A DNA stretch of 64,000 bases. It comes from a virus. The notes under the pieces were generated by a model. It had not been told where the DNA came from and ran no database searches. It saw only the letters and a list, made by a program, of their open reading frames with translations. This document shows positions 25,236 to 62,207 of this stretch, piece after piece. Position 1 is the stretch's first letter, and every line of letters begins with the position of its first letter. Position numbers and translations under genes: made by a program. Location: IMG/VR virus record IMGVR_UViG_3300009110_000302, positions 1-64,000 of that record; one strand, written 5' to 3'.

Positions 25236-26576
25236 ATGGATATGCCGAGAAAGACGAAAACAACCAAGGCGAAAGCCACCAAAGCTAAAACCGCTAAAGC
25301 GAAAAGGGCAACTTCTAGAAGGAAGGAAGAAACAATATTTATATCTTTAGCTAGCTATAGAGACAAAGAGCTTGTACCGACAATAGAAGATATTATTTCC
25401 CAAGCAAGCCAGCCAAAAAATCTAAGGTTTGGTATTTGTTGGCAGAGAGGGGAGGAAGAAAATTTAGATCAATATATTAATGATCCTAGGTTTATTATCA
25501 TAGACGTTCCTTACAAAGAAGCAAAAGGAGTATGCTGGGCTCGAAATTTAATTCAAAAACAATTTAATAATGAAACATATATTCTTCAACTAGATTCTCA
25601 TCATCGTTTTAAAAAAGGGTGGGATACAATTCTAAAGAATAAGTTAAAACTTTTAAAAAAGAAGGGTACGAAAAAACCGATAATAAGTACTTATATCCCT
25701 AGCTATGAACCAGATAGAGAGCCAAAAGGGAGATGTCAAGATGTTTGGAATTTAAGTTTTGATAGATTTATGCCCGAGGGGGCAGTATTTCTTAGGCCGA
25801 ATGGAATGCCAGAAGAATGGGTGAGTAAAAAGAAAAAGACGATGCCGAGAGGTAGGTTCCTAAGTGGTCATTTTATTTTTACTGATGGGCATTTTTATAA
25901 AAACGTTCCGTATGATCCTCATCTTTATTTTCATGGAGAAGAAACCTCTTATGCTGTCAGAGCTTATACTCATGGCTATGACATATTTCAAATGGACGAG
26001 ATCGTTGCGTGGCACTTTTACCATAGAGACGGAAATATTCGACACTGGGACGAGCACTCTGATTGGGACGACATAAATAAAAATAGTTTTAAAAGGTTTA
26101 AAAAACTTTTCAATGTAGACGGAGAAGGAGATGACAAGGTTATGTGGGGTCCTTATGGTCTTGGTAAAGAAAGAACTCTACAAGAGTTTGAACGTTTTGC
26201 TGGAATAGACTTTGAGAACAGAAGGGTCCATAAGGAGACCAAGTTGTTTCTTGAGCCTCCTGTTTCTAATTACGAAGAAGGATTGACGAGCGAGTTTAAA
26301 TATTGCATAGACCTTCACCAAAACGATGTCCCAGAAAAGGATTGCGATTGGATGGCTGTAGCTTTTGAAAACGAAGATGGGGAAGAAGTTGCCCGAATTG
26401 ACGCGGACGAGTCAGAAGTTATCTCGTTACTAAGAGAGGCTTCTCAAGGAGATGGTTGGTTAAGGATATGGCGTACCATTGAAGTCTCAGAAGTCCCTAA
26501 GAGCTGGGTAGTTTGGCCTCATAGCAAGACTAAAGGGTTTTTAGAGAGAATACAGAGAGATTTACCAAAGGTTTAG
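25236..26576 (+). CDS. GT60-like (Skp1-type GlcNAc) glycosyltransferase, paralogue 1
   Basis: Resembles the GlcNAc-transferase family named after eukaryotic Skp1 GlcNAc-transferase: SLASYRDKELVPTIEDII, FGICWQRGEEEN, KGVCWARNLIQ and the metal-binding LQLDSHHRF near residue 117, then FHGEETSYAVRAYTHGYDIF. The N-terminus has a Lys/Ala/Thr repeat tail (KATKAKTAKAKRA). A C-terminal domain from about 345 is shared with the next gene (WPHSKTKGF / WPNSRSQGW endings). TATAAT at 25232-25237 overlaps the first ATG; ATG 25242 may be the true start. First gene of the glycan operon. Confidence 0.85.
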   Translation: MDMPRKTKTTKAKATKAKTAKAKRATSRRKEETIFISLASYRDKELVPTIEDIISQASQPKNLRFGICWQRGEEENLDQYINDPRFIIIDVPYKEAKGVCWARNLIQKQFNNETYILQLDSHHRFKKGWDTILKNKLKLLKKKGTKKPIISTYIPSYEPDREPKGRCQDVWNLSFDRFMPEGAVFLRPNGMPEEWVSKKKKTMPRGRFLSGHFIFTDGHFYKNVPYDPHLYFHGEETSYAVRAYTHGYDIFQMDEIVAWHFYHRDGNIRHWDEHSDWDDINKNSFKRFKKLFNVDGEGDDKVMWGPYGLGKERTLQEFERFAGIDFENRRVHKETKLFLEPPVSNYEEGLTSEFKYCIDLHQNDVPEKDCDWMAVAFENEDGEEVARIDADESEVISLLREASQGDGWLRIWRTIEVSEVPKSWVVWPHSKTKGFLERIQRDLPKV

Positions 26577-26580
26577 AACT

Positions 26581-27834
26581 GTGAAAAAAGATACTATTTT
26601 TGTGCAGATGGCTGCTTATTCGGATCCGGAATTGGTGCCTACGGTTCTAGATATTTTTGATAAAGCTAAATATCCCGATAGGATAAAGGTCTGTGTTTGT
26701 TGGCAGCATAAGCCTGAAGAGAACATTGATGAGATTGCGGAAGATGATAGAGTTTTAATTTTAGATGTTCCGCATGAGGAGACGAAAGGGGTATGTTGGG
26801 CAAGGAATTTAATCCAGAAACAGTACGATGGAGAAACTTATACCTTACAGTTAGATTCTCACCATCGCTTTGAGCAGGATTGGGATGAAATTTCCATCAA
26901 AATGATGAGGAATTTAAAGAAGGCTGGATATAAAAAGCCAATATTAACGGGATATATTAGTTCTTATGATCCTCCTAATGATCCAGAGGGCAGAGCGAAA
27001 GAGCCTTGGCAGATGTGTTTTGATCGATTTACCCCAGAGGGCGCGGTATTTTTTAAGCCGGAAGGTATACCGGATTGGAAAACAAGAAAGCTTCCTCCTA
27101 GGGGGAGATGGTTCTCAGGTCATTTTGCTTTTGCTGATGGGATAATGTGTGAAGAAGTGCCTCACGATCCTAATTATTGGTTCCATGGTGAAGAAATTAG
27201 TATCGCTGCGAGAGCCTACACTCATGGCTATGATATATTTTATCCTCACAAAATGATTGCATACCACGAATATACTAGACAGTATAGAGGCCCCAAAGTT
27301 TGGGACGACCAGCCTGAAAAGACTTCAAAACTAAACGAGGCCTCTCTTTTAAGGAATAGAAAACTTTTTGAAATGGATGGGGAGAAAAGAGATATCGATT
27401 TTGGCCCGTATGGATTCGGTAAAGAAAGGACTTTGAGAGATTACGAAAAGTATGCAGGGATACTTTTTGGTGAGAGATCCGTGCAAAAAGAAACTTTAGA
27501 TAATGTAGAGCCTCCGAATTCTTGCGAGCACGATACGGAAGAAGAATGGGAGAATTCTTTTTGTCGGATATTTAAACATTGCATCGACATCCCCTACGAG
27601 GCTGTACCCCTAGATGATTATCACTTTTGGTGCGTAGTATTAAGAGACGAGGAAGGCAAAGAGATATATAGAGAAGACGCTAGCGATCAAGATATAACTC
27701 GTATGAAAAACGATCCGGATGGTTATTGTAAAGTGTGGGTGGATGCGGTCTTAGATAAAAAGCCACACAGTTGGATGATATGGCCGAATAGTCGCAGTCA
27801 GGGCTGGTGTGAGCAAATAGAAAGCACGCTATAA
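26581..27834 (+). CDS. GT60-like glycosyltransferase, paralogue 2
   Basis: Tandem paralogue of the preceding gene: FVQMAAYSDPELVPTVLDIF, VCVCWQHKPEEN, KGVCWARNLIQKQYDGE, LQLDSHHRFEQDWDE and FHGEEISIAARAYTHGYDIF line up block by block. It lacks the Lys/Ala tail. The start is GTG, 4 nt after the previous stop. Divergence between the copies is substantial, so the duplication is old and the two may use different acceptors. Confidence 0.85.
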   Translation: MKKDTIFVQMAAYSDPELVPTVLDIFDKAKYPDRIKVCVCWQHKPEENIDEIAEDDRVLILDVPHEETKGVCWARNLIQKQYDGETYTLQLDSHHRFEQDWDEISIKMMRNLKKAGYKKPILTGYISSYDPPNDPEGRAKEPWQMCFDRFTPEGAVFFKPEGIPDWKTRKLPPRGRWFSGHFAFADGIMCEEVPHDPNYWFHGEEISIAARAYTHGYDIFYPHKMIAYHEYTRQYRGPKVWDDQPEKTSKLNEASLLRNRKLFEMDGEKRDIDFGPYGFGKERTLRDYEKYAGILFGERSVQKETLDNVEPPNSCEHDTEEEWENSFCRIFKHCIDIPYEAVPLDDYHFWCVVLRDEEGKEIYREDASDQDITRMKNDPDGYCKVWVDAVLDKKPHSWMIWPNSRSQGWCEQIESTL

Positions 27835-27837
27835 TAA

Positions 27838-30204
27838 ATGAATACTAATTCAAAAGATAAGGGAGACTTAACAATAGTAACTGGAATATGGGATTTGAAA
27901 AGGTCTGAAGCCGGGGAGGGCTTCAAGAGACCTTTCTCTCATTACGTAGAGAATTTTGTGAAGCTGTTAAAAACAGACGTGAACATGTATATTTATATTG
28001 AGAAAGAATATGAAGATCTAGTTTGGGAGCATAGAAGCGTAGAAAATACTTACGTACATATTAAAGAGGTCGAGGAGTTTAAAAAATTTGACTTTTACGA
28101 TAAGGTCCAAGAGATAAGGAAAAGCGAGGAATGGCTTACGGCGACGGGAAGCACTTGGCTTAGAGATAGCACTCAGGCTACGCTAGAGTTTTATAATCCA
28201 ATGGTTATGAGTAAAATGTTCATGCTCAACGATGCAGTAATAAGCAACCCTTTCGACACGGATTACTTTGCTTGGATTGATGGGGGCATTACGAATACTG
28301 TTCACGAAGGATACTTTACGCATGATAAGGTTTTCGATAAGGTCGCGCCCCTATTGAAAAAGTTTTTCTTTTTATGTTTTCCTTATGAGACAGATTATGA
28401 AATCCATGGCTTCCCAATTAAAGAAATGGATAAGAAGGCGGGGGAACATGTAAACAGAGTTGCTAGAGGAGGATTTTTTGGAGGGCATAAAAAGTATATA
28501 CCTGAGGTGAACGCTATGTATCATGGACTTTTAAAGTCCTCTATAGAGGGAGGCCTTATGGGTACGGAGGAAAGCATATTCTCTTTGATGACTTACCTGA
28601 ATCCTAAAACTTGCAAGTACTACCCTATAGAAGAGAACGGGTTGATAAGTAAGTTTTTTGAAGACTTAAAAAACAACGATATCGAGATCGAAAGCTCTGA
28701 CACTAATTTATATGTTGTGACATTTAATTTCCCAGACCAATTGGAATACTTGCTTGACTCTTACAAGGAGACGGGATTTTTAAATGAAACGAAAAAATAT
28801 TTAATTAATAATTCTACAGACGACTCAACAGACGCAGCTTATCAAGAGATTTGTGATAGGTATGGTTTTAAACATCTAAAGCAAGAAGAAAATATAGGTA
28901 TTTGTGGAGCTAGACAATACGCTGCTGAACATTTTGCAGAAACGAATTCGCAGTATATGATTTTTCTTGAAGATGACATGCTTTTGAAACGCGCGAATGA
29001 TTCGTCTCTGTGTCAGATGGGCTTCACTTCTCACTCGGAAAATCTTTATGAAAAATTATTAAACATCATGAGTGAAGAGAAATATCACTTTCTCAAATTT
29101 TCATTTACTGAATTTTATGGGACGAACTCCAATCAGTGGGCTTGGTATAATGTACCTCAAGATAAAAGAGAGGAGTATTGGCCAGAGTACAATAAATTGC
29201 CAGAGTTCGGTTTAGACCCAAACTGTCCTTTAACTAATTTTAAAAATATAAAATCCAAAGACGGATTACCTTATGCTGATGGAGAGATTTATTATTGTAA
29301 TTGGCCTCAAATTATTAGCAAAGAAGGGAGTAAGAGAATGTTCTTGGAAACTGTATGGAGAACCCCTCATGAGCAAACTTGGATGTCTCACATTTTCCAG
29401 CTAATCAAAGCGGAAAAAGTCAGAGGGGGGATACTCTTAGCTTCTCCAATATTTCATGATCGAAAATATCATTACAAAGCTGAAGAAAGGGTTGAGTCAC
29501 GAGCAACTGAACAACCGTATTACCTAAACGAAGAGACTCAAGAGGAAGAGCAGCAAGAAGAACCAGCCCAAGTAATAACAGGAGGATTCACTGTGCGCAC
29601 CGAGGACTTATCGGGACATCCGTACGATATCATGACAATGCAGAACGACGGGGTCAAAGAGGTTTTCCCTAACTTTTTAGAGCAAGTTAAACCTAAAAGA
29701 ATAGTAGAAATTGGGACATTCGCAGGAGGGCTTACCTTATTGCTTAGAGGCATGTTGGATGAACTAGGATTAAACGATACCCATATTAAAACCTTTGAGT
29801 ATCTTGATAGTGATTTCTCTCACATTTTTGATGGGAAAAATATTGAGTCTGTCGCGGGAGTTAATATTTTTGATGAAGAATTTAATTTAATTAAGTCAGA
29901 GTATGTGGATGAGTATATCAAAGGCGACGGAACAACCGTGGTTTTATGTGATGGAGGAAGAAAGAGTAAAGAGTTCCAACAGCTGAGTCCTCTCTTAAAA
30001 GAGGGGGACATTATAATGGTTCACGACTACATCGATACAGAAAAGAATTTTCACAGCAACTTTAAAAATAAAATTTGGAACTGGCACGAGGTCTCGCAAA
30101 ATATGCTGGAAGAAGATTGCGAGAAAAATAATTTATATCCATTTTTTGAAGAAGAAATGAAACGAGTAGTGTGGGGCTGCTTCAGGAAGGGCAATAAAAA
30201 TTAA
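27838..30204 (+). CDS. Three-domain fusion: HtrL/YibB-like GT, GT2, SAM methyltransferase
   Basis: 788 aa. Residues 1 to about 280 resemble HtrL/YibB (TIVTGIWDLKRSE, FYNPMVMSKMFML, YFAWIDGGI, RVARGGFFGGHKKYI). Residues about 285-560 form a GT-A family 2-like domain (LYVVTFNFPDQLEYLLDSY, QEENIGICGARQYAA, YMIFLEDDMLL with the acidic metal motif). After an acidic Gln/Glu linker near residue 570, residues about 600-788 are a class I methyltransferase of the cephalosporin-hydroxylase/TylF type (KRIVEIGTFAGGLTLLLRG, VVLCDGGRKSKEF, IIMVHDYID). It could add two sugars and methylate the product. Intact, single frame, 3 nt after the previous gene. Confidence 0.85.
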   Translation: MNTNSKDKGDLTIVTGIWDLKRSEAGEGFKRPFSHYVENFVKLLKTDVNMYIYIEKEYEDLVWEHRSVENTYVHIKEVEEFKKFDFYDKVQEIRKSEEWLTATGSTWLRDSTQATLEFYNPMVMSKMFMLNDAVISNPFDTDYFAWIDGGITNTVHEGYFTHDKVFDKVAPLLKKFFFLCFPYETDYEIHGFPIKEMDKKAGEHVNRVARGGFFGGHKKYIPEVNAMYHGLLKSSIEGGLMGTEESIFSLMTYLNPKTCKYYPIEENGLISKFFEDLKNNDIEIESSDTNLYVVTFNFPDQLEYLLDSYKETGFLNETKKYLINNSTDDSTDAAYQEICDRYGFKHLKQEENIGICGARQYAAEHFAETNSQYMIFLEDDMLLKRANDSSLCQMGFTSHSENLYEKLLNIMSEEKYHFLKFSFTEFYGTNSNQWAWYNVPQDKREEYWPEYNKLPEFGLDPNCPLTNFKNIKSKDGLPYADGEIYYCNWPQIISKEGSKRMFLETVWRTPHEQTWMSHIFQLIKAEKVRGGILLASPIFHDRKYHYKAEERVESRATEQPYYLNEETQEEEQQEEPAQVITGGFTVRTEDLSGHPYDIMTMQNDGVKEVFPNFLEQVKPKRIVEIGTFAGGLTLLLRGMLDELGLNDTHIKTFEYLDSDFSHIFDGKNIESVAGVNIFDEEFNLIKSEYVDEYIKGDGTTVVLCDGGRKSKEFQQLSPLLKEGDIIMVHDYIDTEKNFHSNFKNKIWNWHEVSQNMLEEDCEKNNLYPFFEEEMKRVVWGCFRKGNKN

Positions 30205-30235
30205 TATTAATAGATCAGACGTTCTCTCTCAGTCA

Positions 30236-31552
30236 TTGGATTTTTTCCCAGAAGAATGGGTGAAAAATTTCCCGTGGCTGTCTGGCGTCGACAATGGTGT
30301 GGCGGACCCCCAGTATAGGTTATTAAAATATTTATCCAGCATCCATGACGGAGTAACTATATTAGATTTTGGGACAAGCCAAGGTCATTCAGCTTTAGCT
30401 TTAGCTCAGAACAAAAGCAATAAAGTTATTACTTATGGCCTTAATCTTAATGGCGGGGCGGTTTCTCTTCTGGGCAAAGCTCCTAATGTTGAAATCGCAG
30501 CCCTTTCCGTCCAAGAAATAGAAGAGGAAGTGATTCTTTCTTCTTCATTCGTATTCTTGGATCTTGACCCTCATGATGGCATACAGGAGGCGGGGGTCAT
30601 TGAAAGACTAAAGTCGATTGGCTACAAGGGGTTTGTCGTGTGTGATGATATTAACTGGCCAGCAGGTATGAAAGAATGGTGGGATAGTGTCGACTTAAAT
30701 AAATATGACGTTACGGAAGTAGGACACGCTTCAGGAACAGGAATAATATCTTTTAGTAATGAAGAGTTCAATGTCATACAGGATAGAAAAAAGGATTATA
30801 ATTATTGCTTCACCGCCTTAGCGATAGGCAAAGAGTACGAAGATCTGTCTGTAAAGCGCTACAATTCCCTAAGAGAAAAAACTAAATCGTGTGATTTTCA
30901 TTTAACAGTCAATAATTCAGAACTGCAAGACTTGGGAGACAGGGCTTTCCTGAACGAGTTACATTTGGACAAATTTAGAGACGAGGGGAGGCCGCAGTTT
31001 GGTTGTTATTTAAATATGAAGTGTCTTGCTCTCAAAGCGACTTTAGAAAAATATTCTGGAAAGCATTATGATTATATAGTATACACAGATGGAGATTGGC
31101 AAATGCATGACAAATTTGAAGAAGAAAAAGTTTTTAAATGCTTTGATTTACTAGAAGAAAATGAAAATTTAGATTTCATTTACGAAAGACCCGGCACCGT
31201 TGGCGACCACAAAAAAACTCCCGACAATTTAAGGCAGGCGTGGGCTACGGTAAAAATTGAAGACTACAACCTTCGGGATCATGACCTTTGGGATGATGCG
31301 ATAATGCCCAATGAGCAGATTTATATATTTAAAAATAGTTGGAAATTTAAAATGTTTGTTCAAGAGTGGGAAAAATTTTTGTGGTATACCGTAGCGAATA
31401 ACATGGATAATTTTGGAGAGTGCTTCGAGACAGGAGTATCAGCTCTATTGGCGGGGATGAAAGGTACGTGGCATCCTTTTCATAGCGGTTCCGTATTAAG
31501 TCAGTGTTTTTATTTTTACTGTAGGAATGGGATACGCCATGAAAGATTTTAA
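30236..31552 (+). CDS. Methyltransferase-glycosyltransferase fusion
   Basis: The N-terminal 190 aa are a class I SAM fold (ILDFGTSQGHSALALAQN, FVFLDLDPHDG, FVVCDDINWPAGMKEWW, GHASGTGIISF). The C-terminal part (YIVYTDGDWQMHDKF, FIYERPGTVGDHKKTPDN, NEQIYIFKNSWKFKMFVQEW) looks like a GT-A glycosyltransferase with a DGD metal motif. The listed start is TTG; the frame is open upstream to about 30180, and no ATG is present, so the start is uncertain. The methyltransferase domain is a paralogue of the free protein at 52001. Confidence 0.75.
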   Translation: MDFFPEEWVKNFPWLSGVDNGVADPQYRLLKYLSSIHDGVTILDFGTSQGHSALALAQNKSNKVITYGLNLNGGAVSLLGKAPNVEIAALSVQEIEEEVILSSSFVFLDLDPHDGIQEAGVIERLKSIGYKGFVVCDDINWPAGMKEWWDSVDLNKYDVTEVGHASGTGIISFSNEEFNVIQDRKKDYNYCFTALAIGKEYEDLSVKRYNSLREKTKSCDFHLTVNNSELQDLGDRAFLNELHLDKFRDEGRPQFGCYLNMKCLALKATLEKYSGKHYDYIVYTDGDWQMHDKFEEEKVFKCFDLLEENENLDFIYERPGTVGDHKKTPDNLRQAWATVKIEDYNLRDHDLWDDAIMPNEQIYIFKNSWKFKMFVQEWEKFLWYTVANNMDNFGECFETGVSALLAGMKGTWHPFHSGSVLSQCFYFYCRNGIRHERF

Positions 31553-32252
31553 AGACAAAATAATTTCTTTTAGTCTGTATAATCACCCTTCTAAAGCGGG
31601 CGACCTAACTTATTACATTGGGGCTGAAAAAAATTTAAAGTTAAATAATCGTTTTTTACCTGATTGGAAAACGGTCATTTATTATCATAAAGACAGAATT
31701 GATGAGGAGTGGGTTCCTAAACTTGCTGATCTAGGAGCTTGTATGATTGAAGTGTCAGAAAACGAGCGTTTAAAGGGGGAGCTTTCAACTATGCAGGATA
31801 TGATGTGGAGACTTTTAAGCATTTATGAAGAAAATGTATGCATAATTAGAGACTTAGATAGTAGAATGACTCAGAGAGAAGCGAATTATATAAATGATTG
31901 GCTTAATTCCGAGTGTAAATATTTCATAATAAGGGATCATCCTTGGCACGCGTCAGTTCCCGGTGGCTTATTCGGGATTAAAGGGGCGGATAAAAAGCTT
32001 GAGGATCATATTTCTGATTTCTTAAAAAATAATGAGCTTGTTTGGGGATCAGACCAAGAAATGTTAGCCCTTTACAGAGAGAACAATATTGATGATAAAG
32101 ATTTATATTATTGTGGTTACGATGATCAAAAAAATTATATACCAAGAGATGATAAAGGTTTTTTCATAGGGGTACAGGTTGACGAGAACGATAAAATAAC
32201 TAAAGAGAATTCAATATTAGCATTAGAAATGTTAGAGGAGATGAACCTATGA
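31527..32252 (+). CDS. Putative glycosyltransferase
   Basis: 241 aa (or 237 from ATG 31539, MKDFKDKIIS). Sequence blocks IISFSLYNHPSKAGDLTYYIGAEK, FLPDWKTVIYYHKD, VCIIRDLDSRM (candidate DxD) and FIIRDHPWH resemble a family of small sugar transferases in polysaccharide loci. It overlaps the previous gene by 26 nt and the next by 4 nt. Donor unknown. Confidence 0.7.
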   Translation: MGYAMKDFKDKIISFSLYNHPSKAGDLTYYIGAEKNLKLNNRFLPDWKTVIYYHKDRIDEEWVPKLADLGACMIEVSENERLKGELSTMQDMMWRLLSIYEENVCIIRDLDSRMTQREANYINDWLNSECKYFIIRDHPWHASVPGGLFGIKGADKKLEDHISDFLKNNELVWGSDQEMLALYRENNIDDKDLYYCGYDDQKNYIPRDDKGFFIGVQVDENDKITKENSILALEMLEEMNL

Positions 32253-32941
32253 TTAAAAATTGGAAATACGGGCCATGCTATGGAGCAGGAAGGCCCTTTA
32301 TAAAAGAATACATAAAAGAAAATAATTTTAATACTATAGACGTTGGTGCGTCAGCACGTTATTGGTCTTACCCCGAGTGTAAAGTCGTTGTGGATAGTTA
32401 TCACCCAAATTATTTTGCGCAAGCACTCGGCCGCCCAAATCCTAATTATCAAGATGTTTTATTTTTCGATTTAAATATCGAAGATGTGGACAGTTGGAAC
32501 GAGATATTAGAGTACGTAGACGATAATGATAAGTTCGATTTTTCGATTTGCTCACATACATTAGAGGATGTTTTCAATCCGATTGACCTCGCTCGGATGT
32601 TGGAAAAAGTATCACATCGAGGCTACATCGCAGTGCCTTCAAAATATGATGAACTTACAAACCTCTTTGGCCACCCTTACAGGGGTAACGCGCATCATAA
32701 GCAAATATTTGACGTTGTTGAGGATGAATTAGTTATATATCCTAAATTCTCTTGGATAGAAACGGATGGAAGAAGTGATAAAATTGTAGAAAATTCTTTG
32801 GGTCCTGAATTAGAATTGACATGGGAGGGGGAAATTCCGATAAAGGTATTTCCCTCGCTGCCGCCCAATCTCGCCGGCCATGGAGGTGATGAAGGATTAA
32901 TAAATAGATATTACCAAGAGCTAATGATGAAAAGAAAATAA
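32249..32941 (+). CDS. Class I SAM-dependent methyltransferase-like protein
   Basis: 230 aa. Motif I-like NTIDVGASARYW, acidic residue of strand 2 in KVVVDSYHPN, post-motif LFFDLN and motif IV-like FDFSICSHTLEDVFNP match the class I fold. Start codon overlaps the previous stop (ATGA). It probably modifies a sugar in the glycan made by this operon. Confidence 0.75.
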   Translation: MIKNWKYGPCYGAGRPFIKEYIKENNFNTIDVGASARYWSYPECKVVVDSYHPNYFAQALGRPNPNYQDVLFFDLNIEDVDSWNEILEYVDDNDKFDFSICSHTLEDVFNPIDLARMLEKVSHRGYIAVPSKYDELTNLFGHPYRGNAHHKQIFDVVEDELVIYPKFSWIETDGRSDKIVENSLGPELELTWEGEIPIKVFPSLPPNLAGHGGDEGLINRYYQELMMKRK

Positions 32942-32948
32942 AAATATT

Positions 32949-34001
32949 ATGAAAACTATAAAAGTGTCTAGACAGGGGTTCGCTAACTTTGGGTGTCATA
33001 GTTGGCTTAGATATATTATGTTTGTTTTATCTAAAAAATACAACGTTATAATTGACGCCGTTAATCCAGATTTAATTTTGCAAACGAATTGGCAAGTTGA
33101 TTATAACGAGGTAGATCCTCAAACCAAAGAGTTACCTACAGATTTTAAACCAGAAGAAAATAAAAACATAAAATTCTTACGTGTTACAGGGGAAGCGGGT
33201 GCGGATTCCTTCGCACTTAAAGATGAGAATGTTTGGATTATGGACTATCAAAATCTTGATCACCCTAGACATTTAAGGCAACCGTCAGGAGCTTTTGATG
33301 TATGGACTATGTTTGACGAGGCTAGAGTGGTGGATTCTCCTTTGTCTTGGTTGACAGAAAAAAGAGATTATGAAAAAATTAAAGATAGAAATACGGGCCT
33401 CTGTTGCGTAACTCAAAATAGTAATAGTGACCTTAGGGCAAAAATATTTGATAAACTTAGTGAATATAAACAGGTTGTATCTTCTGGTGCTTGGAGAGGT
33501 AATGCGGCAGTAGAAGACAAAGACCAGAATGGAAACATATCAGCACGGAAATGGGGTGACAATCCTATATATAGGGGTAGACATGACGGTTTAGTTTATA
33601 AGGAAAAAATAGAATTTTCTAATAACTATAAGTTTTTCATGGCTATTCATTGGACAGATACAGACTATATTCTTCAAGAGAAAATTTATCATGGGTTTTT
33701 CTCAGGGTGCATACCCTTGTTTTATGGTAATAAATATATTTCTGAAGTGGATAAGTTTAATCCCGATTCTTTTATTAATCTTCATGATTATTGTTCTTCA
33801 GAACAAGGGAAAATACAAGATTGGAAAAATTATCAAGATATAGACCTTGATAAACTTTTAGAAGACGTGAAAGAGATTGATACTAATGAATCTTTACGTA
33901 AAAAATATATAGAGGCTCCTATATTCATAGACAATAAACTTCCGGATTATTATAGCTTCGATTACGTTTTAGACTTCTTAGAGAGAATGATAGAGAGTTA
34001 G
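32949..34001 (+). CDS. GT10-like (alpha-1,3-fucosyltransferase family) glycosyltransferase
   Basis: 350 aa. The C-terminal half has the GT10 donor-binding signature in order: YKFFMAIHWTDTDYILQEKI, GFFSGCIPLFYG and DSFINLHDY. The N-terminal acceptor half is divergent (SWLRYIMFVLSKKYNVIIDA). Family members use GDP-fucose or related GDP-sugars, consistent with the mannose/GDP-sugar genes elsewhere in the window (phosphomannomutase-like, cupin). The change of the usual ENS to IHW may alter donor preference. Confidence 0.8.
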   Translation: MKTIKVSRQGFANFGCHSWLRYIMFVLSKKYNVIIDAVNPDLILQTNWQVDYNEVDPQTKELPTDFKPEENKNIKFLRVTGEAGADSFALKDENVWIMDYQNLDHPRHLRQPSGAFDVWTMFDEARVVDSPLSWLTEKRDYEKIKDRNTGLCCVTQNSNSDLRAKIFDKLSEYKQVVSSGAWRGNAAVEDKDQNGNISARKWGDNPIYRGRHDGLVYKEKIEFSNNYKFFMAIHWTDTDYILQEKIYHGFFSGCIPLFYGNKYISEVDKFNPDSFINLHDYCSSEQGKIQDWKNYQDIDLDKLLEDVKEIDTNESLRKKYIEAPIFIDNKLPDYYSFDYVLDFLERMIES

Positions 34002-34009
34002 CTTGGAGA

Positions 34010-37545: not shown

Positions 37546-37573
37546 TTGCAAAATGATATTATAAATTTATAAT
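37546..37573 (+). promoter_or_regulatory. Sigma70-type promoter, predicted leaderless start for 37580
   Basis: TTGCAA (37546-37551), 16-nt spacer, TATAAT (37568-37573). A +1 seven bases after the -10 is exactly the A of the ATG at 37580. No Shine-Dalgarno. Confidence 0.65.
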
Positions 37574-37579
37574 ATATAA

Positions 37580-38137
37580 ATGAGGTTAGATCATATAGCT
37601 TACAGATCTAAAGATCGTAATAAGACCGCAGAATTCTTCGCGGACACCCTTGGTTATACAATAGGCACAGAGTTTCAGGTAAAGTTTGATGACGGAGGGA
37701 AAGCCGACTGTTTAGCCTTAGTTCCGCCAGAGAATAGAACTGAAGAAACTAACCTCTGGAGACTCGAGACCTATCTCTCCATGAACGAAATTGAAACGGA
37801 AAGTCCCGTAGAATATCATGCTCCACCTGAAATTTTTGTTAGTGACGGCCCTGAAGGGAGTATTGTGGGTGATTGGGTTGCCGATCGCGGTGGCGTTGGC
37901 GGTATTCATCACATCGCTTATCAAGTGGAAGATGTGGAAAGAACAATGAAGGAGTGGAAGGGCAAGGGGTATGCTGAATTTTATTCAGAAGAACCTATGA
38001 CTTGTCCCGGCCTTACTCAAGTTTTTACAAAACCATCCGAATTAACAGGAGTTATTTATGAGCTTATATCTAGAGAAGGTAAAGGGTTTTGCGAGCTTAA
38101 TGTTAAAGGACTTATGCAAAGCACTAAAGGAGAGTAA
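37580..38137 (+). CDS. VOC-superfamily dioxygenase/glyoxalase-like protein
   Basis: 185 aa with two beta-alpha-beta-beta-beta modules: LDHIAYRSKDRNKTAEFFAD at the N-terminus and GIHHIAYQVEDVERTMKEW in the middle. The metal set (His in LDHIAY, His in GIHHIAY, Glu in VIYELI) is visible. The C-terminal half recalls 4-hydroxyphenylpyruvate dioxygenase-related proteins but is much shorter. First gene of the unit with the aldehyde dehydrogenase and the lysine-dehydrogenase-like gene, so an amino- or keto-acid substrate is likely. Confidence 0.82.
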   Translation: MRLDHIAYRSKDRNKTAEFFADTLGYTIGTEFQVKFDDGGKADCLALVPPENRTEETNLWRLETYLSMNEIETESPVEYHAPPEIFVSDGPEGSIVGDWVADRGGVGGIHHIAYQVEDVERTMKEWKGKGYAEFYSEEPMTCPGLTQVFTKPSELTGVIYELISREGKGFCELNVKGLMQSTKGE

Positions 38138-38138
38138 C

Positions 38139-39668
38139 ATGAGAGATTTCGAAGGTAGAAATTACATAAACGGAGAGTGGCGAGCTACTTCCGAAATGTA
38201 TACAAAAATTAATCCGTCAACGGGTAAAGCTCAAGGGGCGTTTCCGTCAAGCGGCCCAAGTGAAGTTTCTAAAGCTGTACTGTCTGCGAGAAAAGCTTTT
38301 AAAAAATGGAGAAAGGTTAGCAGGTTTGTTCGTTCTGATTATATGAACAAGGTCGCTCAAATTATTGAAAGAGATAAAGAAAAGTTGGCTAAAATCATAT
38401 CTTTAGAAACGGGTAAAAATTATAATGAAAGCATCGCAGAGGTTAATGAGGCTTTGCATATGGCTCAATTTGCTTTCGGCTCTGGTCGTTATAGCCATGG
38501 AGAGGCAGTATCTTCAGAGATTGAAGATAAAGATGCTTACATGCTTAGGAAGCCTAAAGGTGTAATAGCTATCGTAACTCCTTTCAACTTTCCTCTGGCA
38601 ATAGGTATGTTTTGGAACGCTGCACCAGCATTGGTGGAAGGAAATACAATAGTAATTAAACCAAGTGAAGATGCTCCGATGTCAACTCAAGCGGCTGTTC
38701 AAATTTATGCGGAAGCTGGTATCCCACGTGGAGTCATTAATTTGGTGCATGGTGACGGTACTACTGGCAACCTTTTGGTTCATGATGATGTTGATCATAT
38801 TTGTTTTACTGGTAGTGCCGATGTCGGACAGCATATTCGTAAAGTGGCTGCAGAGTCTTGGCATAAGACTACCTCTTGTGAACTAGGCAGCAAATCTGCT
38901 TGCATCATTTTTGATGACGTTGAATTTAAATTAAGCATGGAGGCTGCGATCGCAAGCGCTTTTAAATTATCAGGGCAACGGTGTGTCTCTTCTGGTAGAA
39001 TGATAGTGCAAAGAACTATCTATAGCGAGTTCGCAAAAAGATTTGCGGAGGAGGCGGCAAAATTAAAGACAGGGAATCCATTCAAGTCCATGCTTGGCAC
39101 CTCAGGCTGCCCAGATGGTATGGTTTGGGAAGAGCTTGTGGCTGACGAAGACGTTTATTATGGTCCGATTATAAATGAGCAAGGGTTTTCTAAAATTAGG
39201 AGCATGAATAAAATGGTTATAGATGACCCAGAAGCCGAAGTCCTTTTAGCTCCAGCTTACACCGGAGACCATAAATCTTATTACTCTACCCCAATGGTAT
39301 ATAAAACCGAGTGGAGAGACGTAAAGTATTTAAAAAATGAGGTGTTTGGTCCTCACGTGGCGATTATCCCTTTTGATACGATGGAAGATGCGATTCGTAT
39401 TTATAACGATACAGATTACGGTCTTGCGGTTGGGATTTTAACTAACGATTTTAGAAAAGCGAGAGTTATGAGGGACGAATGTGACGCAGGTATGATCTAT
39501 TGGAATGGCGGGTCAATCGCAGCGGAATCTCACTTAGCTTTTGGAGGAGTTAAGAAGTCCGGAAACGGATTCCCAAGCGCGGCCAGAACTTTTAGAGCAG
39601 TTACTCATGAAATAAGCTGGACTGTGAACCATGCAGATGCTCTAACTTTTCCTCAGGGGATGAAGTGA
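38139..39668 (+). CDS. NAD(P)-dependent aldehyde dehydrogenase
   Basis: Oxidises an aldehyde to a carboxylate. ATG 38139 is chosen because GGAGAG lies just upstream; the longer frame from 38058 runs inside the previous gene. Motifs: NYINGEW, VTPFNFPLAI, ALVEGNTIVIKPSE, FTGSADVGQHI, general base Glu in SCELGSKSA, catalytic Cys in SGQRCVSSGR, and EVFGPHVAII. Length 509 aa is normal. The Gly of ELGGK is replaced by Ser. With a lysine-6-dehydrogenase-like gene two genes on, an aminoadipate-semialdehyde role is plausible; a glutamate-semialdehyde role with the ProDH at 60470 is the alternative. Confidence 0.95.
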   Translation: MRDFEGRNYINGEWRATSEMYTKINPSTGKAQGAFPSSGPSEVSKAVLSARKAFKKWRKVSRFVRSDYMNKVAQIIERDKEKLAKIISLETGKNYNESIAEVNEALHMAQFAFGSGRYSHGEAVSSEIEDKDAYMLRKPKGVIAIVTPFNFPLAIGMFWNAAPALVEGNTIVIKPSEDAPMSTQAAVQIYAEAGIPRGVINLVHGDGTTGNLLVHDDVDHICFTGSADVGQHIRKVAAESWHKTTSCELGSKSACIIFDDVEFKLSMEAAIASAFKLSGQRCVSSGRMIVQRTIYSEFAKRFAEEAAKLKTGNPFKSMLGTSGCPDGMVWEELVADEDVYYGPIINEQGFSKIRSMNKMVIDDPEAEVLLAPAYTGDHKSYYSTPMVYKTEWRDVKYLKNEVFGPHVAIIPFDTMEDAIRIYNDTDYGLAVGILTNDFRKARVMRDECDAGMIYWNGGSIAAESHLAFGGVKKSGNGFPSAARTFRAVTHEISWTVNHADALTFPQGMK

Positions 39669-40114
39669 TGAATGGAAAGGGAGATAAACCAAGACCTATG
39701 AATTTCAAAAGGTATCATCAAAATTATGATGCTATTTTTAGTAAAAAAAAAGGAAAGAAAATGGAATTCCATATAGCGACAAAAGGAACGAAAGAGGATC
39801 AAAAACCTGTCGTCCTCGTAGACATTGACGAAACTATTTGTTTTTACTCTGGTAATCGTAGATACGACCTAGCTGAACCGAGTAAAGAAAACATCGGCAA
39901 AATAAACAAGATGTATGACGAAGGGTGGAAAGTTATATATTGGACAGCTAGAGGTTCCGTATCAAAAAAAGATTATTATCAATACACTTGGGATCAGTTG
40001 GAGTCTTGGGGCTGTAAGTTCCATGACTTATCTACAGGTACAGGAGGAACACACCCAAAACCTAATTATGATTTAGTTATTGACGATAAAGCAAAAAGAA
40101 TAGAGGAAATATAA
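39668..40114 (+). CDS. HAD-like phosphatase with phage-type N-terminal extension
   Basis: 148 aa from ATG 39668 (TGATG overlap with the previous stop). Residues about 1-30 (GKGDKPRPMNFKRYHQNYDAI) match a short motif I recall from standalone phage proteins. The rest is a HAD fold: PVVLVDIDETICFYSG (DxD), VIYWTARGS (motif II) and LVIDDKAKRI (motif III). Likely a sugar- or nucleotide-phosphate phosphatase. Confidence 0.8.
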   Translation: MNGKGDKPRPMNFKRYHQNYDAIFSKKKGKKMEFHIATKGTKEDQKPVVLVDIDETICFYSGNRRYDLAEPSKENIGKINKMYDEGWKVIYWTARGSVSKKDYYQYTWDQLESWGCKFHDLSTGTGGTHPKPNYDLVIDDKAKRIEEI

Positions 40115-40116
40115 TT

Positions 40117-40221
40117 ATGGCTAACAAAGAAAAGAGAAAAAAAGAAAAAAAGAAACCTGCTAAAAAGACACCAGCGGAAAAAAGAAAAGAGAAGAGAGAA
40201 AAGAAAAGAAGAGGCAAGTAA
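40117..40221 (+). CDS. Lys/Arg-rich mini-protein, 34 aa
   Basis: Almost entirely Lys, Arg and Glu (MANKEKRKKEKKKPAKK...). Starts 2 nt after the HAD stop and ends directly before the next ATG, so it occupies an operon slot. Could bind nucleic acid. Low-complexity, so only moderately sure it is made. Confidence 0.55.
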   Translation: MANKEKRKKEKKKPAKKTPAEKRKEKREKKRRGK

Positions 40222-41316
40222 ATGAGAGCTTATGTTCTAGGAGTCGGCAGGATGGGAACAGCCATTGCTTGGGCGATGGATAAATTAGGTTTTGAAGTGA
40301 CAGGTATGGACACTAACCCTGACGCCGCAAACAATATGACAGGCTCTTTTTTTGTTGTTGATGACGCGGATGATATTTGTAAAGGCATCGTAGCAAACGG
40401 TCCAAGGCCAGACATTGTTATTAGCAGCTTGCCTTACCACCAAACGGAAGTGGTAGGCAAGTGGTGCGTAGATAACGAAGTACGCTATTGCGACTTAGGC
40501 GGCAGAGTAGATGTCTCGAAAAATATTAATGATCACGCCGAGCAGTTTGCGACTCGACCAGTTTTCACAGATTTAGGCTTAGCTCCCGGCTGGGTAAATA
40601 TATTAGCCGAAGAGGGATGCAGGAAATTCCATGGCTCTGCTGAAGAAGTTAAAATGATGGTCGGGGGCTTACCCGACTATTTAGAGAGCTCGAATAATCC
40701 ATTGCGTTACGCACTTACTTGGTCTGTTGATGGATTGATCAATGAATATAGAGACGATTGCCTTATCCTTGAAGACGGAGAAGTAAAAACTGTAAAAGGA
40801 ATGTCTGGGGTAGAACAGATAGAGGGCGAAAAGTTTGGACCCATGGAGGCTTTTTATACAAGTGGTGGCGCGTCACATTCAATTCACGACATGCAACGAA
40901 GAGGAGTTAAGAATTGCTCCTATAAAACCATAAGGTACAGGGGTCATGGAGATATGGTTAGATTTTTGATTAGAGATTGCGATCTAGACGATGGAGCGTT
41001 AACTAAAATTTTCCGAGAAGGTTGCGGTACGGTAGATAAAGACGAGGTGTTTATCGTAGCAGAAGTGAAGGGCGGGGATAAAACTTGGAGACAGGAGAAG
41101 GTGATCAAATCTGACGAACAATTTTCAGCCATGCAAAAAGCTACGGCGTTTTCCATTTCCTCTGTAGCAGCGATTATGGCTCAAGGAAAGCTAGAGGGGA
41201 ACATGGAACAGCGTAGAGACTATTGGACTCAGTACCCAGCGGCCTTATCTTATGATAATGTGCCTTTTAATGAATTTAATAATAACTTAGAAAGATTATT
41301 GACTAGTGCTTTATAA
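40222..41316 (+). CDS. Saccharopine dehydrogenase/lysine 6-dehydrogenase-like oxidoreductase
   Basis: 364 aa. N-terminal Rossmann motif AYVLGVGRMGTAIAW, then DIVISSLPYHQTEVVGKWC and CDLGGRVDVS, as in the saccharopine-dehydrogenase superfamily. The catalytic domain has FTDLGLAPGWVNILAEEG, YTSGGASHSIHDM and YKTIRYRGHGDMVRF, a pattern of lysine 6-dehydrogenase and saccharopine reductases. Length fits lysine 6-dehydrogenase (about 380 aa). The product of that enzyme, piperideine-6-carboxylate, is a substrate for aldehyde dehydrogenases like the one at 38139. Carboxynorspermidine dehydrogenase is an alternative. Confidence 0.85.
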   Translation: MRAYVLGVGRMGTAIAWAMDKLGFEVTGMDTNPDAANNMTGSFFVVDDADDICKGIVANGPRPDIVISSLPYHQTEVVGKWCVDNEVRYCDLGGRVDVSKNINDHAEQFATRPVFTDLGLAPGWVNILAEEGCRKFHGSAEEVKMMVGGLPDYLESSNNPLRYALTWSVDGLINEYRDDCLILEDGEVKTVKGMSGVEQIEGEKFGPMEAFYTSGGASHSIHDMQRRGVKNCSYKTIRYRGHGDMVRFLIRDCDLDDGALTKIFREGCGTVDKDEVFIVAEVKGGDKTWRQEKVIKSDEQFSAMQKATAFSISSVAAIMAQGKLEGNMEQRRDYWTQYPAALSYDNVPFNEFNNNLERLLTSAL

Positions 41317-41333: not shown

Positions 41334-41945
41334 ATGATTAATTATTGCGATTTCTCAGAAAAAGAACTAATAAGTAAATCTGTAGAAGGTGAGAAAAAAG
41401 CCTTTGAAGAACTCTTGTCTAGAAATAAAGGCAGGGTAGAGGGGTGGATTTTATCATTCACCAAGCAGTCTGAAATTGTTCAGGATATTTTTCAAATAAC
41501 TTCTCTAAAAGCTTGGAGATTCTTAGATAAATTTAGAGGTGATTGCAAATTCAGCACTTGGATGTGCAATATTGCTAGAAATAGTTATTATGATTTTTAT
41601 AGGGCGAAGCAAAGACGTCCAGAGATTTCTTTAGATGCCCTATTAGAGGAACAGAAGAAGAATGGAGGAGCTTTTGAGTTTTATAATTGTGAGACAGAAG
41701 AGCATCCGAGAAATAAAGAACAAGATTCAAATTATTATTTAACTGAAATAAGTAAAAAATTGGAGTTTTTAGACCCAAGACATAGAGACCCATTGATAAT
41801 GTTTGTTGGAGAAGGCTTAGAGTATTCTGAAATTGCGGAGAAGTTGAATTGTCCGGTGGGGACTGTAATGTCTAGAATTTTTTACGCTAGAAAAAAAGCC
41901 CAAAAGATTTTGAGTCCTTTGAGAAATGAGCTTATCACAAAATAG
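41334..41945 (+). CDS. ECF-type RNA polymerase sigma factor
   Basis: 203 aa. Sigma region 2 is clear: KAFEELLSRNKGRVEGWILSF, IVQDIFQITSLKAWRFLDKF and KFSTWMCNIARNSYYDFYRA. Region 4 is the HTH RHRDPLIMFVGEGLEYSEIA, EKLNCPVGTVMSRIFYARKK. Domain spacing is that of the ECF (group 4) family. Phages rarely carry ECF-type factors; it would redirect host RNA polymerase to a phage promoter class. No anti-sigma gene is adjacent. Its own start appears leaderless. Confidence 0.92.
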   Translation: MINYCDFSEKELISKSVEGEKKAFEELLSRNKGRVEGWILSFTKQSEIVQDIFQITSLKAWRFLDKFRGDCKFSTWMCNIARNSYYDFYRAKQRRPEISLDALLEEQKKNGGAFEFYNCETEEHPRNKEQDSNYYLTEISKKLEFLDPRHRDPLIMFVGEGLEYSEIAEKLNCPVGTVMSRIFYARKKAQKILSPLRNELITK

Positions 41946-58990: not shown

Positions 58991-59184
58991 AAAACACAAA
59001 AAAGAGAATGCACCGAACGTCAGACCCGACTTGGCATACCTACACATATAGTGGAGAGACAAAAAGCCCATTTGACATAGAAATGATTAAATATTATAAT
59101 GAATCCGAAGGCAGGGATCAAATATTGTTCCTTTATAAAGATAAAACCGATGGGAAAATTTTTAAATATAGAATATTACAGTGA
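58987..59184 (+). CDS. Hypothetical protein, 65 aa
   Basis: ATG 58987 follows GGAGG and overlaps the previous stop. Sequence MKNTKKRMHRTSDPTWHTYT, then DQILFLYKDKTDGKIFKYRI. No family recognised. Confidence 0.68.
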   Translation: MKNTKKRMHRTSDPTWHTYTYSGETKSPFDIEMIKYYNESEGRDQILFLYKDKTDGKIFKYRILQ

Positions 59185-60284
59185 TCGATGAAGATAAAAA
59201 AATACTTAATGACTTTTTTGAGTCCTTGGTAGTAGGAAAGGAGACTTTTATAGGTTATCCCGTTAATACCCTTTTCGATTATTCTGAATTATTTAAATTT
59301 TTATCTATACCCCTGAACAACGTAGGCGACCCCTTTTGTTCTAGTTATTATGGCCTCGATTCAAGACTGATGGAAAGAGAGGTGTTGGATTGGTTTGCCA
59401 AACTCCACAACGCTCCATTAGATAATTATTGGGGTTACGTTACAAATGGAGGTACGGAAGGTAATATGTATGGTCTTTATCTCGCTAGGGAACTGTATCC
59501 CAAAGGGGTTGTTTATTATTCGCAAGACACGCATTATAGCGTGAGTAAAAATATTCGTATGTTAAACATGGAACACGTTATGATAAAGTCTCGTCGTAGC
59601 GGAGAAATGGATTACCAAGATTTACATGAAATGATTTCAACTTGGCGTTCGGCTCCTCCTGTTATTTTCGCTAACGTGGGGACAACAATGAGAGAGGGTT
59701 TCGATGATATAAATGAAATAAAAAAAGTTTTAAGAGCTTTAGCCATCCCAGAGTATTATATTCATGCGGATGCGGCATTAGGAGGAATGACATTACCATT
59801 TATAGAAAATTCCCCTGCTTTTGATTTTACGACAGGCGTACAAAGTATGTCTATTAGTGGTCATAAATTTATAGGCTCTCCTTTGCCGTGCGGAGTTGTT
59901 TTAGCTTTAAAAAGTAATGTAGGTAGAGTAGCGAGGGCGGTAGAGTATGTAGGGTCTTTGGATAGCACGGTTAGTGGCTCTAGAAATGGCTTTACTCCCA
60001 TACTTTTATGGTACGCGATAAAGAAATTTGGATTTAATGGCTTCAAGAAAATGGTTAGAGGTTGCGTCAGAACAGCAGAATTAGCCGTTAGAAAGATGAA
60101 CGACAGCAATATAAAGGCTTGGAAAAACGACTATGCTATAACGGTAGTTTTCCCTAGACCCGCTGAAAATGTGGTAAAAAAGTGGAAATTAGCGGTACAA
60201 GACGATATTGCTCATATTATTTGTATGCCTCAAGTTAATGGGGATGTAATTAATAATGTAATAAAAGACATAAGAGAAAGGTGA
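59181..60284 (+). CDS. PLP-dependent group II decarboxylase, histidine-decarboxylase-like
   Basis: 367 aa, GTG start on a GTGA overlap. Motifs: WGYVTNGGTEGNMYGLYLAR (cofactor phosphate), YYSQDTHYSVSKNIRML, VIFANVGTTMREGFDDI, YIHADAALGGMTLPF (Asp to pyridine N) and the Schiff-base Lys in SISGHKFIGSPLPCGVV near residue 229. The pattern is that of bacterial PLP histidine decarboxylase and plant serine decarboxylase. Product would be an amine. Adjacent to ProDH and OCD-family genes, implying an amino-acid module. Confidence 0.88.
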   Translation: MIDEDKKILNDFFESLVVGKETFIGYPVNTLFDYSELFKFLSIPLNNVGDPFCSSYYGLDSRLMEREVLDWFAKLHNAPLDNYWGYVTNGGTEGNMYGLYLARELYPKGVVYYSQDTHYSVSKNIRMLNMEHVMIKSRRSGEMDYQDLHEMISTWRSAPPVIFANVGTTMREGFDDINEIKKVLRALAIPEYYIHADAALGGMTLPFIENSPAFDFTTGVQSMSISGHKFIGSPLPCGVVLALKSNVGRVARAVEYVGSLDSTVSGSRNGFTPILLWYAIKKFGFNGFKKMVRGCVRTAELAVRKMNDSNIKAWKNDYAITVVFPRPAENVVKKWKLAVQDDIAHIICMPQVNGDVINNVIKDIRER

Positions 60285-60469: not shown

Positions 60470-61312
60470 ATGAATTTTTTATATCCATTAGCGAAAAGGT
60501 TTATTGCTGGCTATGATTTGGAATCTGCCAGAGATAATATTCAACGCCTAATGGATGAAGGCTACGAGGTTTCAATAGATTACGTCGGTGAGAATAGTAA
60601 AAGTCAGGAGGACTGTTTGAAAGCTTTTAAGCAGTATGTCAAAATTATAAAATTTTATAAAAATAAAAAAATAAACATCTCCATTAAGCCTTCTCAATTA
60701 GGAATAAACATCCACCCAATACTTTCTTATTCTCACATTTCCAAATTAGCTGAACTAGCTAAAAAACATAACCATACAATCCGTTTAGATATGGAAGATT
60801 CAAAAGTTACAGAGCTTACGAGGAATCTTGCTGTTTGTTTAAATAGGAGGTTTGGAAATGTGGGAGTAGCGATACAAGCTAATTTACATAGAAGTAATAA
60901 AGACATTGATAATCTAATAAAGGAAGGGGTTTCTGTTCGTTTAGTTAAGGGGGCATATAAAGAAAATGAGAAAGTAGCTTATCAAAATTATTTTGATATA
61001 ACTGGCTCTTTTTTTGATTATGCTGCTAGGTTGTATTCAAGAAAGGCAAATAAACCAGCACTCGCCACCCATGATGAAGAGTTGTTAGGGGATGTAGAGG
61101 AACTTATACCCCATCCTGATTATTTTGAATATGAGTTTCTTTATGGAGTTCGTAGAGATTTACAAAAAAGCTTGAAAGATAAAGGGTATACGGTTAGAGT
61201 ATATATACCATTTGGAAAGAATTGGCTACCTTATACGTTGAGGAGACTTAAAGAGTGGAAGAACTTAAAGTTTGTAATAAAAAATATACTGTATGAGATA
61301 TTTAAGCGATGA
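60470..61312 (+). CDS. Proline dehydrogenase, monofunctional
   Basis: FAD-dependent oxidation of L-proline to pyrroline-5-carboxylate. The barrel motifs run in order: ISIKPSQLGINIH, TIRLDMEDSKV, VGVAIQANLHRS, VSVRLVKGAYKENE, ALATHDEELL, EYEFLYGVRRDLQKSL, YTVRVYIPFGKNWLPYTL and RRLKEW. 280 aa matches monofunctional bacterial ProDH. No P5C-dehydrogenase domain is fused; the ALDH at 38139 is the only aldehyde dehydrogenase in the window. Overlaps the next gene by 20 nt. Confidence 0.92.
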   Translation: MNFLYPLAKRFIAGYDLESARDNIQRLMDEGYEVSIDYVGENSKSQEDCLKAFKQYVKIIKFYKNKKINISIKPSQLGINIHPILSYSHISKLAELAKKHNHTIRLDMEDSKVTELTRNLAVCLNRRFGNVGVAIQANLHRSNKDIDNLIKEGVSVRLVKGAYKENEKVAYQNYFDITGSFFDYAARLYSRKANKPALATHDEELLGDVEELIPHPDYFEYEFLYGVRRDLQKSLKDKGYTVRVYIPFGKNWLPYTLRRLKEWKNLKFVIKNILYEIFKR

Positions 61313-62207
61313 AGAAGTTTCCGGCTTATTGGAAAATAAATGGAGTCAAATAATAAACTCTATCGAATCTGCTTTTCTTGACCCATCTGTAGACATGGTT
61401 CCTAAAATTTACCTTAAGGGTGAAGGTGGAGATTTTAGAGCTATGCCAGCGGCACTTGGCAAATATGCGGCTATCAAGTGGATTGGAGTGTTCCCAGACA
61501 ACTATCAGATTCCAATACCCACAACGAATGGTTCGCTTATTTTGAGTGACAGGGAAACAGGAGTGCCTCTAATGGGTATGGACTGTACCACTCTTACAGC
61601 ATATAGAACTGCGGCTACTTCAGCGATAGCCGCCAAGTATTGCTCTCCTGAAGCTGAGAACTTTGCGATCATAGGTTGTGGGTTACAAGCCAAATATCAT
61701 ATTGAGGCTTATGAAACTATCTTTAGTCACATGAAGATGGATGTTGAGCTTTACGATAAAAATGAAAAAATACAAAAGGATGTATTTAATTGGTTAGGTA
61801 GCGAAAATCTTTGTAGGGCTTGGGGCAGAAATAAATCAGTAAAGGAAGCGGTTAAATATGCAGACGTTATTACTACTCTTACACCATCTACATCACCTTA
61901 TTTGGACATCCATGATGTTAAAAGTGATTGTCATATCAACGCTGTCGGTGCGGATGCAGTCGGGAAAAGAGAATTGATGACTAACATCATTGATGGGTCA
62001 TCGTTTATTGTCTGTGACGATGAAGAACAAGCTTTGCATTCTGGAGAGCTACAATATAACACATGGCCGAACTTACAACCGCAGTCTATTAATTCTCTAA
62101 TTAAGAACAAAAAAATCCCAAATAAAGGAGTATCAGTGTTTGATTCCACGGGAGTAGCTATTGAAGATGTAGCTATCGCAGCATTAATCTACAAATTATC
62201 GGAGTAA
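61293..62207 (+). CDS. Ornithine cyclodeaminase/mu-crystallin family enzyme
   Basis: 304 aa. GKYAAIKWIGVFPDNYQIPI with the substrate Lys, LMGMDCTTLTAYRTAATSAI, Rossmann motif FAIIGCGLQAKYHIEAYETI, CHINAVGADAVGKREL and the catalytic Asp in SVFDSTGVAIEDVAIAALI. Ornithine cyclodeaminase makes proline from ornithine; other members are ketimine reductases or alanine dehydrogenases. Overlapping ProDH suggests ornithine to proline to P5C. Lysine cyclodeamination is also possible. Confidence 0.9.
   Translation: MRYLSDEEVSGLLENKWSQIINSIESAFLDPSVDMVPKIYLKGEGGDFRAMPAALGKYAAIKWIGVFPDNYQIPIPTTNGSLILSDRETGVPLMGMDCTTLTAYRTAATSAIAAKYCSPEAENFAIIGCGLQAKYHIEAYETIFSHMKMDVELYDKNEKIQKDVFNWLGSENLCRAWGRNKSVKEAVKYADVITTLTPSTSPYLDIHDVKSDCHINAVGADAVGKRELMTNIIDGSSFIVCDDEEQALHSGELQYNTWPNLQPQSINSLIKNKKIPNKGVSVFDSTGVAIEDVAIAALIYKLSE

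Follow-up and report, generated by a model that had tools for sequence, protein, structure and literature searches.

What would a phage gain from an enzyme set that appears suited to degrading lysine? The question is raised by a stretch of 64,000 nucleotides (the window, which is the first 64 kb of the 117,535-bp virus record IMGVR_UViG_3300009110_000302) that carries, close together, genes for a VOC-superfamily protein (VOC), an aldehyde dehydrogenase (ALDH) and a saccharopine-dehydrogenase-superfamily enzyme (SDH), and for which an earlier note had proposed conversion of lysine into 2-aminoadipate. We show that this gene group is a maintained phage module and not a chance cluster, since dozens of viral contigs repeat the gene set in the same order, and the catalytic and cofactor motifs are invariant in the alignments. 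On balance, and with moderate confidence, we favour a phage amino-acid oxidation unit that may take lysine to 2-aminoadipate by way of SDH (or a lysine 6-transaminase, LAT) and ALDH. The analysis shows which genes are present, how they are conserved and linked, the families in which they fall and the predicted folds, and from these we infer substrate, direction, cofactor and benefit.

Viral-contig searches yielded, once duplicates were removed, 75 distinct phage ALDH loci; viral contigs are often fragments, and the absence of a gene from them carries little meaning. Within 5 kb downstream of ALDH an SDH or LAT-family gene was found in 56 of the 62 loci with at least 5 kb of flanking sequence (46 of the 62 with SDH, 12 with LAT), and the VOC gene ends no more than 300 nt upstream of ALDH in 47 of the 73 loci with enough sequence. 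By this recurrence the unit is conserved. Carriers are mostly environmental phages, and a search of INPHARED with SDH gave no match. A scan of genome contigs gave two loci only, one (L045) binned as SAR202, rich in glycosyltransferases and probably phage, the other (L044:24-1930) on a contig of a Planctomycetota metagenome-assembled genome, where a terminase-like gene precedes an SDH homologue, perhaps as a prophage remnant.

By profile, predicted fold and tree, SDH belongs with lysine 6-dehydrogenase (LysDH). The protein joins a Rossmann NAD domain to the saccharopine dehydrogenase C-terminal domain (PF16653, 80.9 bits, above the gathering score), PF03435 being borderline (25.0 bits against a cut-off of 25.1 in hmmscan, 27.1 in a profile search of genomes). 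Its best profile match is the Pyrococcus horikoshii lysine dehydrogenase 3ABI (118.6 bits, near full length), with human AASS at 68 bits and carboxyspermidine dehydrogenase at 19 bits, and 3ABI also ranks first in a fold search with the AlphaFold2 model (pLDDT 88.7; E 9e-24, TM 0.77/0.80). In the tree the phage SDHs, bacterial SDHs and 3ABI (on a long branch) split from the saccharopine reductases with support of 100/99; they have in common an APG motif, which is DPG in saccharopine reductases, and the phage and bacterial proteins also share EAFxTSGG and Y(K/R)TxR(Y/F/W)xGH. Identity as a saccharopine reductase was rejected on the missing DPG motif and the separate clade. Carboxyspermidine dehydrogenase has a His-Glu-Glu (HEE) active-site triad (PMC10413350), and a carboxy(nor)spermidine dehydrogenase was likewise rejected, the window protein having no such triad and its match in the PDB profile search reaching only those 19 bits. 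SDH thus clusters with neither carboxynorspermidine dehydrogenases nor other reductases, and its assignment to LysDH in the earlier note holds. NAD is suggested as the cofactor by Asp30, which follows the second Rossmann strand and is invariant.

Cellular homologues of SDH also lie in telling surroundings. On a plasmid of Legionella adelaidensis (L207), the gene is followed, 10 bp downstream, by an ALDH that passes the equivalog for piperideine-6-carboxylate (P6C) dehydrogenase (770 bits, cut-off 730). Homologues on plasmids of Rhizobium rhizogenes, Nitratireductor and Azospirillum are divergent from an Lrp/AsnC regulator gene, a layout typical of amino-acid catabolism. The Agrobacterium lysine 6-dehydrogenase is a characterized enzyme (PMC9854754), to which we draw no sequence link from these three homologues.

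LAT and LysDH are known alternative C6 deaminases (PMC9854754), and sister phages of the LAT type carry the order HAD-VOC-ALDH-ArgZ-like-LAT-UGDH, sometimes followed by SDH; in L010/L268 ALDH, the ArgZ-like gene, LAT and SDH are contiguous. Against the L-lysine 6-transaminase model TIGR03251 the sister-phage LAT scores 475–480 bits (cut-off 521, next family 212–224), and its sequence clearly places it in the lysine 6-transaminase family, though just under the equivalog cut-off. The window phage record has no match to this model. Of the 41 ALDH records tested for SDH and for LAT, none lacks both (27 SDH only, 10 LAT only, 4 both). In two sister phages (L111:5858-16223 and, from a reading of its sequence, L106:5861-16265) the block VOC-ALDH-ArgZ-LAT-UGDH-SDH sits inside a split DNA polymerase III alpha gene, in L111 between the PHP and NTPase part on one side and an exonuclease with the finger part on the other.

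VOC and ALDH are separated in huge phages, LAT is present in some of these, and in 8 loci only a few kb part LAT from a glutamate dehydrogenase gene; nearness of these two genes is noted for L184:5873-9909, L227, L231, L236, L237, L239, L242, L246 and L248. LAT and glutamate dehydrogenase together amount to the net LysDH reaction. Several huge phages (L183, L185-L188, L043, L289-L291) have an indolepyruvate-decarboxylase-like thiamine pyrophosphate enzyme near ALDH, mostly followed by a gene for translation initiation factor IF-3, and several of these also carry DnaJ- and GroES-like genes.

The second enzyme is less readily placed. ALDH is a member of its superfamily, with catalytic N150, E248 and C282 invariant in 30 sequences, and passes none of the curated functional models of NCBIfam: it scores 266 bits against the P6C-dehydrogenase model pip_6_carb_DH (NF050084, cut-off 730), and 259 and 284 bits against the pyrroline-5-carboxylate (P5C) dehydrogenase models TIGR01237 and NF002852 (cut-offs 660 and 648). 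In a quick tree, in which some bacterial references sit on long branches, the ALDHs of phages, huge phages among them, fall into a single phage-only clade (support 99). Membership of ALDH7, a possibility the earlier note had raised, is rejected on both the score and the tree.

Several points weigh against lysine oxidation. By these comparisons ALDH differs in type from the known P6C dehydrogenases (ALDH7). Its clade is, in this sampling, sister to haloarchaeal ALDHs (support 97), the closest cellular relatives found (up to 39.7 % identity; a closer one may exist), and all four haloarchaeal loci read (L156, L203, L204, L205) have proline dehydrogenase nearby, and in some there is also a gene for a proline racemase or for a proline symporter. 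In sister phages the ArgZ-like hydrolase gene next to LAT (arginine-dihydrolase-like, 225–252 bits against a cut-off of at least 450) points to arginine and ornithine; in huge phages ALDH instead lies near a 2-oxo acid decarboxylase-like gene. The complementarity of LAT and SDH (Fisher p 9e-7) rests on 2–3 tree changes and has no phylogenetic power, so that we rejected exclusivity as independent proof and take the pattern in the 41 ALDH records as suggestive only. The four records with both genes would be redundant if both enzymes deaminate lysine only. No use of aminoadipate was found, and the role of VOC is left unexplained by the scheme.

These points feed the main and serious rival, to which we would give a minor though real share of belief: a route from arginine, ornithine and proline to glutamate, in which SDH or LAT would deaminate ornithine to glutamate semialdehyde/P5C, proline dehydrogenase would add further P5C, and ALDH would be the P5C dehydrogenase. 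It draws on the haloarchaeal sister group and its proline loci, on the ArgZ-like gene between ALDH and LAT, which mirrors the chemistry of E. coli astB-astC-astD, and on the window phage itself, which encodes a proline dehydrogenase and an enzyme of the ornithine cyclodeaminase/mu-crystallin (OCD) family (found in 8/48 and 11/48 of the records searched, respectively, most of these being module-bearing phages). Set against it are the placement of both SDH and LAT in lysine families, the SDH–ALDH linkage, which is far commoner than proline dehydrogenase, and the failure of every NCBIfam P5C-dehydrogenase model. Since the haloarchaeal sister ALDHs adjoin proline dehydrogenase, an amino-acid semialdehyde is suggested as the ALDH substrate; kinship would favour P5C in the first place, phage context P6C.

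The joint presence of LAT and SDH in four records could also be accommodated if SDH worked reductively, joining a semialdehyde to an amine (in the manner of saccharopine, carboxyspermidine or opine enzymes) to make a building block for glycan or specialized-metabolite genes. Such enzymes occur in the superfamily (PMC10413350) and the window phage has many sugar and glycosyltransferase genes; we nevertheless hold this to be improbable, given that the reductase DPG motif and the HEE triad are absent from the window SDH, that fold and tree are nearest lysine dehydrogenase and that Asp30 suggests NAD. Equally slight is the prospect that ALDH and VOC are a general aldehyde-handling pair with SDH as an unrelated neighbour: in its favour, VOC in huge phages is separate from ALDH, which there lies near the decarboxylase-like gene without SDH; the downstream SDH or LAT gene at 56/62 ALDH loci speaks against it.

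Lysine C6-deamination followed by semialdehyde oxidation is supported in that SDH groups with LysDH, the Legionella SDH precedes a P6C dehydrogenase and LAT replaces or joins SDH, and lysine is the likely substrate on these family placements despite the ornithine/proline alternative. We suggest that SDH would act as an NAD-linked L-lysine 6-dehydrogenase, giving 2-aminoadipate semialdehyde (in equilibrium with P6C), ammonia and NADH, and that oxidation of the semialdehyde by ALDH would then yield L-2-aminoadipate and a second NADH; the first step would fall, in sister phages, to the transaminase, replacing or joining SDH. In phages that have proline dehydrogenase, ALDH probably accepts P5C as well, so that the window phage may supply a single ALDH with both P6C and P5C. 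Infection could profit from nitrogen, as ammonia or glutamate, together with reducing power, from aminoadipate as such, or from all of these. Of the two-enzyme conversion originally proposed, the first step is therefore well supported by the grouping of SDH with LysDH and the swap for LAT, and the second is plausible, with an ALDH that is not ALDH7.

VOC belongs to a family that was phage-specific in the searches made and reaches huge phages. H5, E84, H110/H111 and E161 are invariant in an alignment of 45 relatives, a pattern compatible with a four-ligand metal site. The AlphaFold2 model (pLDDT 86.4) has methylmalonyl-CoA epimerase as its best fold match and, as second group, hydroxymandelate synthase/HPPD. 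Despite that best match, a methylmalonyl-CoA epimerase was rejected (TIGR03081, 49 bits against a cut-off of 115), as was an HPPD-type dioxygenase (TIGR01263, 26 bits in the C-terminal tail only, cut-off 277). Our guess is that the substrate of the protein is a reactive carbonyl or imine arising in the pathway. A broader picture, which we put forward only tentatively and regard as possible, is a phage-specific amino-acid oxidation island found in ordinary tailed phages and, dispersed, in phages of 340–600 kb, with LysDH and LAT as unrelated but interchangeable lysine deaminases, a new type of aminoadipate/glutamate semialdehyde ALDH, and VOC as a new enzyme for the reactive semialdehyde or cyclic imine.

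VOC, ALDH and SDH are uninterrupted open reading frames (ORFs) at the positions in Table 1, as in the earlier note, which had omitted the HAD-like and 34-codon ORFs between the latter two. ALDH had been listed from 38058, which is over-extended; we place its start at 38139, one base from the VOC stop and preceded by AAAGGAG. The HAD-like ORF overlaps the ALDH stop as TGATG and the stop of the 34-codon ORF abuts the SDH start (TAAATG). A single transcription unit is plausible because the five ORFs run head to tail, with gaps of 0–2 bases or a one-base overlap. The 34-codon ORF was rejected as a lysine-sensing leader peptide, since the ORF that precedes SDH in relatives either differs or encodes another basic peptide, and is not Lys-rich. 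In six loci (L018, L022, L030, L031, L033, L052) a conserved basic peptide of ~45 aa (KKTRQGxxxxSKGMKxYRGQGGPRKRxKK) ends at the SDH start or adjacent to it. The 'strong leaderless promoter' formerly placed before VOC fares less well: the match TTGCAA-16-TATAAT ends 6 bases 5' of the VOC ATG, which has no Shine–Dalgarno sequence, and its strength is unsupported, such sites showing no excess over shuffled sequence (16 against 15.7). TATAAT or TATAAA just 5' of VOC recurs in a minority of relatives only, and a conserved leaderless promoter, not kept module-wide, was rejected.

Table 1. Features of the module and of other amino-acid genes in the window
Feature	Position	Strand	Assignment
Sigma-70-like match TTGCAA-16-TATAAT	37546..37573	+	possible leaderless start directly before VOC
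VOC gene	37580..38137	+	VOC-superfamily metalloprotein, phage-specific family; PF13669/PF00903
ALDH gene	38139..39668	+	PF00171, 417 bits; candidate amino-acid semialdehyde dehydrogenase
Small HAD-like ORF	39668..40114	+	phrog_1238/polynucleotide-kinase-like phosphatase; recurrent in module
34-codon Lys-rich ORF	40117..40221	+	44% Lys; basic
SDH gene	40222..41316	+	saccharopine-dehydrogenase-superfamily enzyme, lysine 6-dehydrogenase type; PF16653, 81 bits
Pyridoxal phosphate (PLP) histidine decarboxylase	59181..60284	+	NF002748 passed, 490 vs 305 bits; possible accessory amino-acid gene
Proline dehydrogenase	60470..61312	+	PF01619, 109 bits; makes P5C, possible second ALDH substrate
OCD-family dehydrogenase	61293..62207	+	PF02423, 209 bits

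The window phage is a tailed phage, with a T4-type terminase large subunit at ~99.8 kb and a DnaB-like helicase. Its DNA polymerase III alpha is split (13373-17995), the PHP part being separated from the remainder by a cupin and an exonuclease. Directly 3' of SDH lies an ECF-type sigma factor gene (41334-41945), unusual in a phage, with related genes at 9/75 ALDH loci. The large glycan gene set includes GlmS, GlcNAc-type and GT10-like glycosyltransferases and a short UDP-sugar dehydrogenase (56311-58149, 25236-34005, 22805-23608). The idea that the product feeds an ATP-grasp conjugate (42586) was abandoned because an ATP-grasp gene lies near the module in 1 of 75 loci, that of the window phage.

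Phage auxiliary genes usually serve nucleotide, photosynthesis or sugar metabolism. If our reading is right, a phage block degrades lysine (perhaps also arginine and proline), which the phage needs for its own proteins, and nitrogen, redox power or aminoadipate could limit infection. The module also supplies three directly assayable enzymes without a PHROG function, no PHROG family matching SDH or VOC and ALDH matching one of unknown function. Lysine-degradation genes have been listed in phages by KEGG terms (PMC10732071, PMC13205691); in the parts of these papers available to us they appear as KEGG pathways or as K14157 (aminoadipate semialdehyde synthase), not as the VOC-ALDH-SDH/LAT block, and we found no description of that block as a recurring phage unit in the openly searchable literature, subscription papers lying outside.

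Finally, four cellular systems invite comparison. E. coli astB-astC-astD, like the LAT-type phages, unites a dihydrolase, a class III transaminase and an ALDH in one cluster; its enzymes act on succinylated intermediates, and the phage stretches read showed no genes for a succinyl step. The haloarchaeal proline-utilization ALDHs are the closest cellular ones found and form the sister clade, but their loci hold proline dehydrogenase and, in some cases, genes for proline transport or a racemase, and the stretches read carry no annotated SDH or VOC. The lat-pcd pair of cephamycin producers and Flavobacterium (PMC9854754) deaminates lysine at C6 and oxidizes the semialdehyde to aminoadipate, and sister phages similarly pair a LAT-family gene with ALDH; the phages differ in that no beta-lactam genes were seen, the ALDH is not pcd-type and the window phage record is without LAT. 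The Legionella adelaidensis pair of LysDH and P6C dehydrogenase shares with the window an SDH-type lysine dehydrogenase gene and an ALDH gene, in Legionella the one following the other; its ALDH is an ALDH7-type P6C dehydrogenase (770 bits), whereas the phage ALDH is of another clade (266 bits) and the phage adds the VOC and HAD-like genes.

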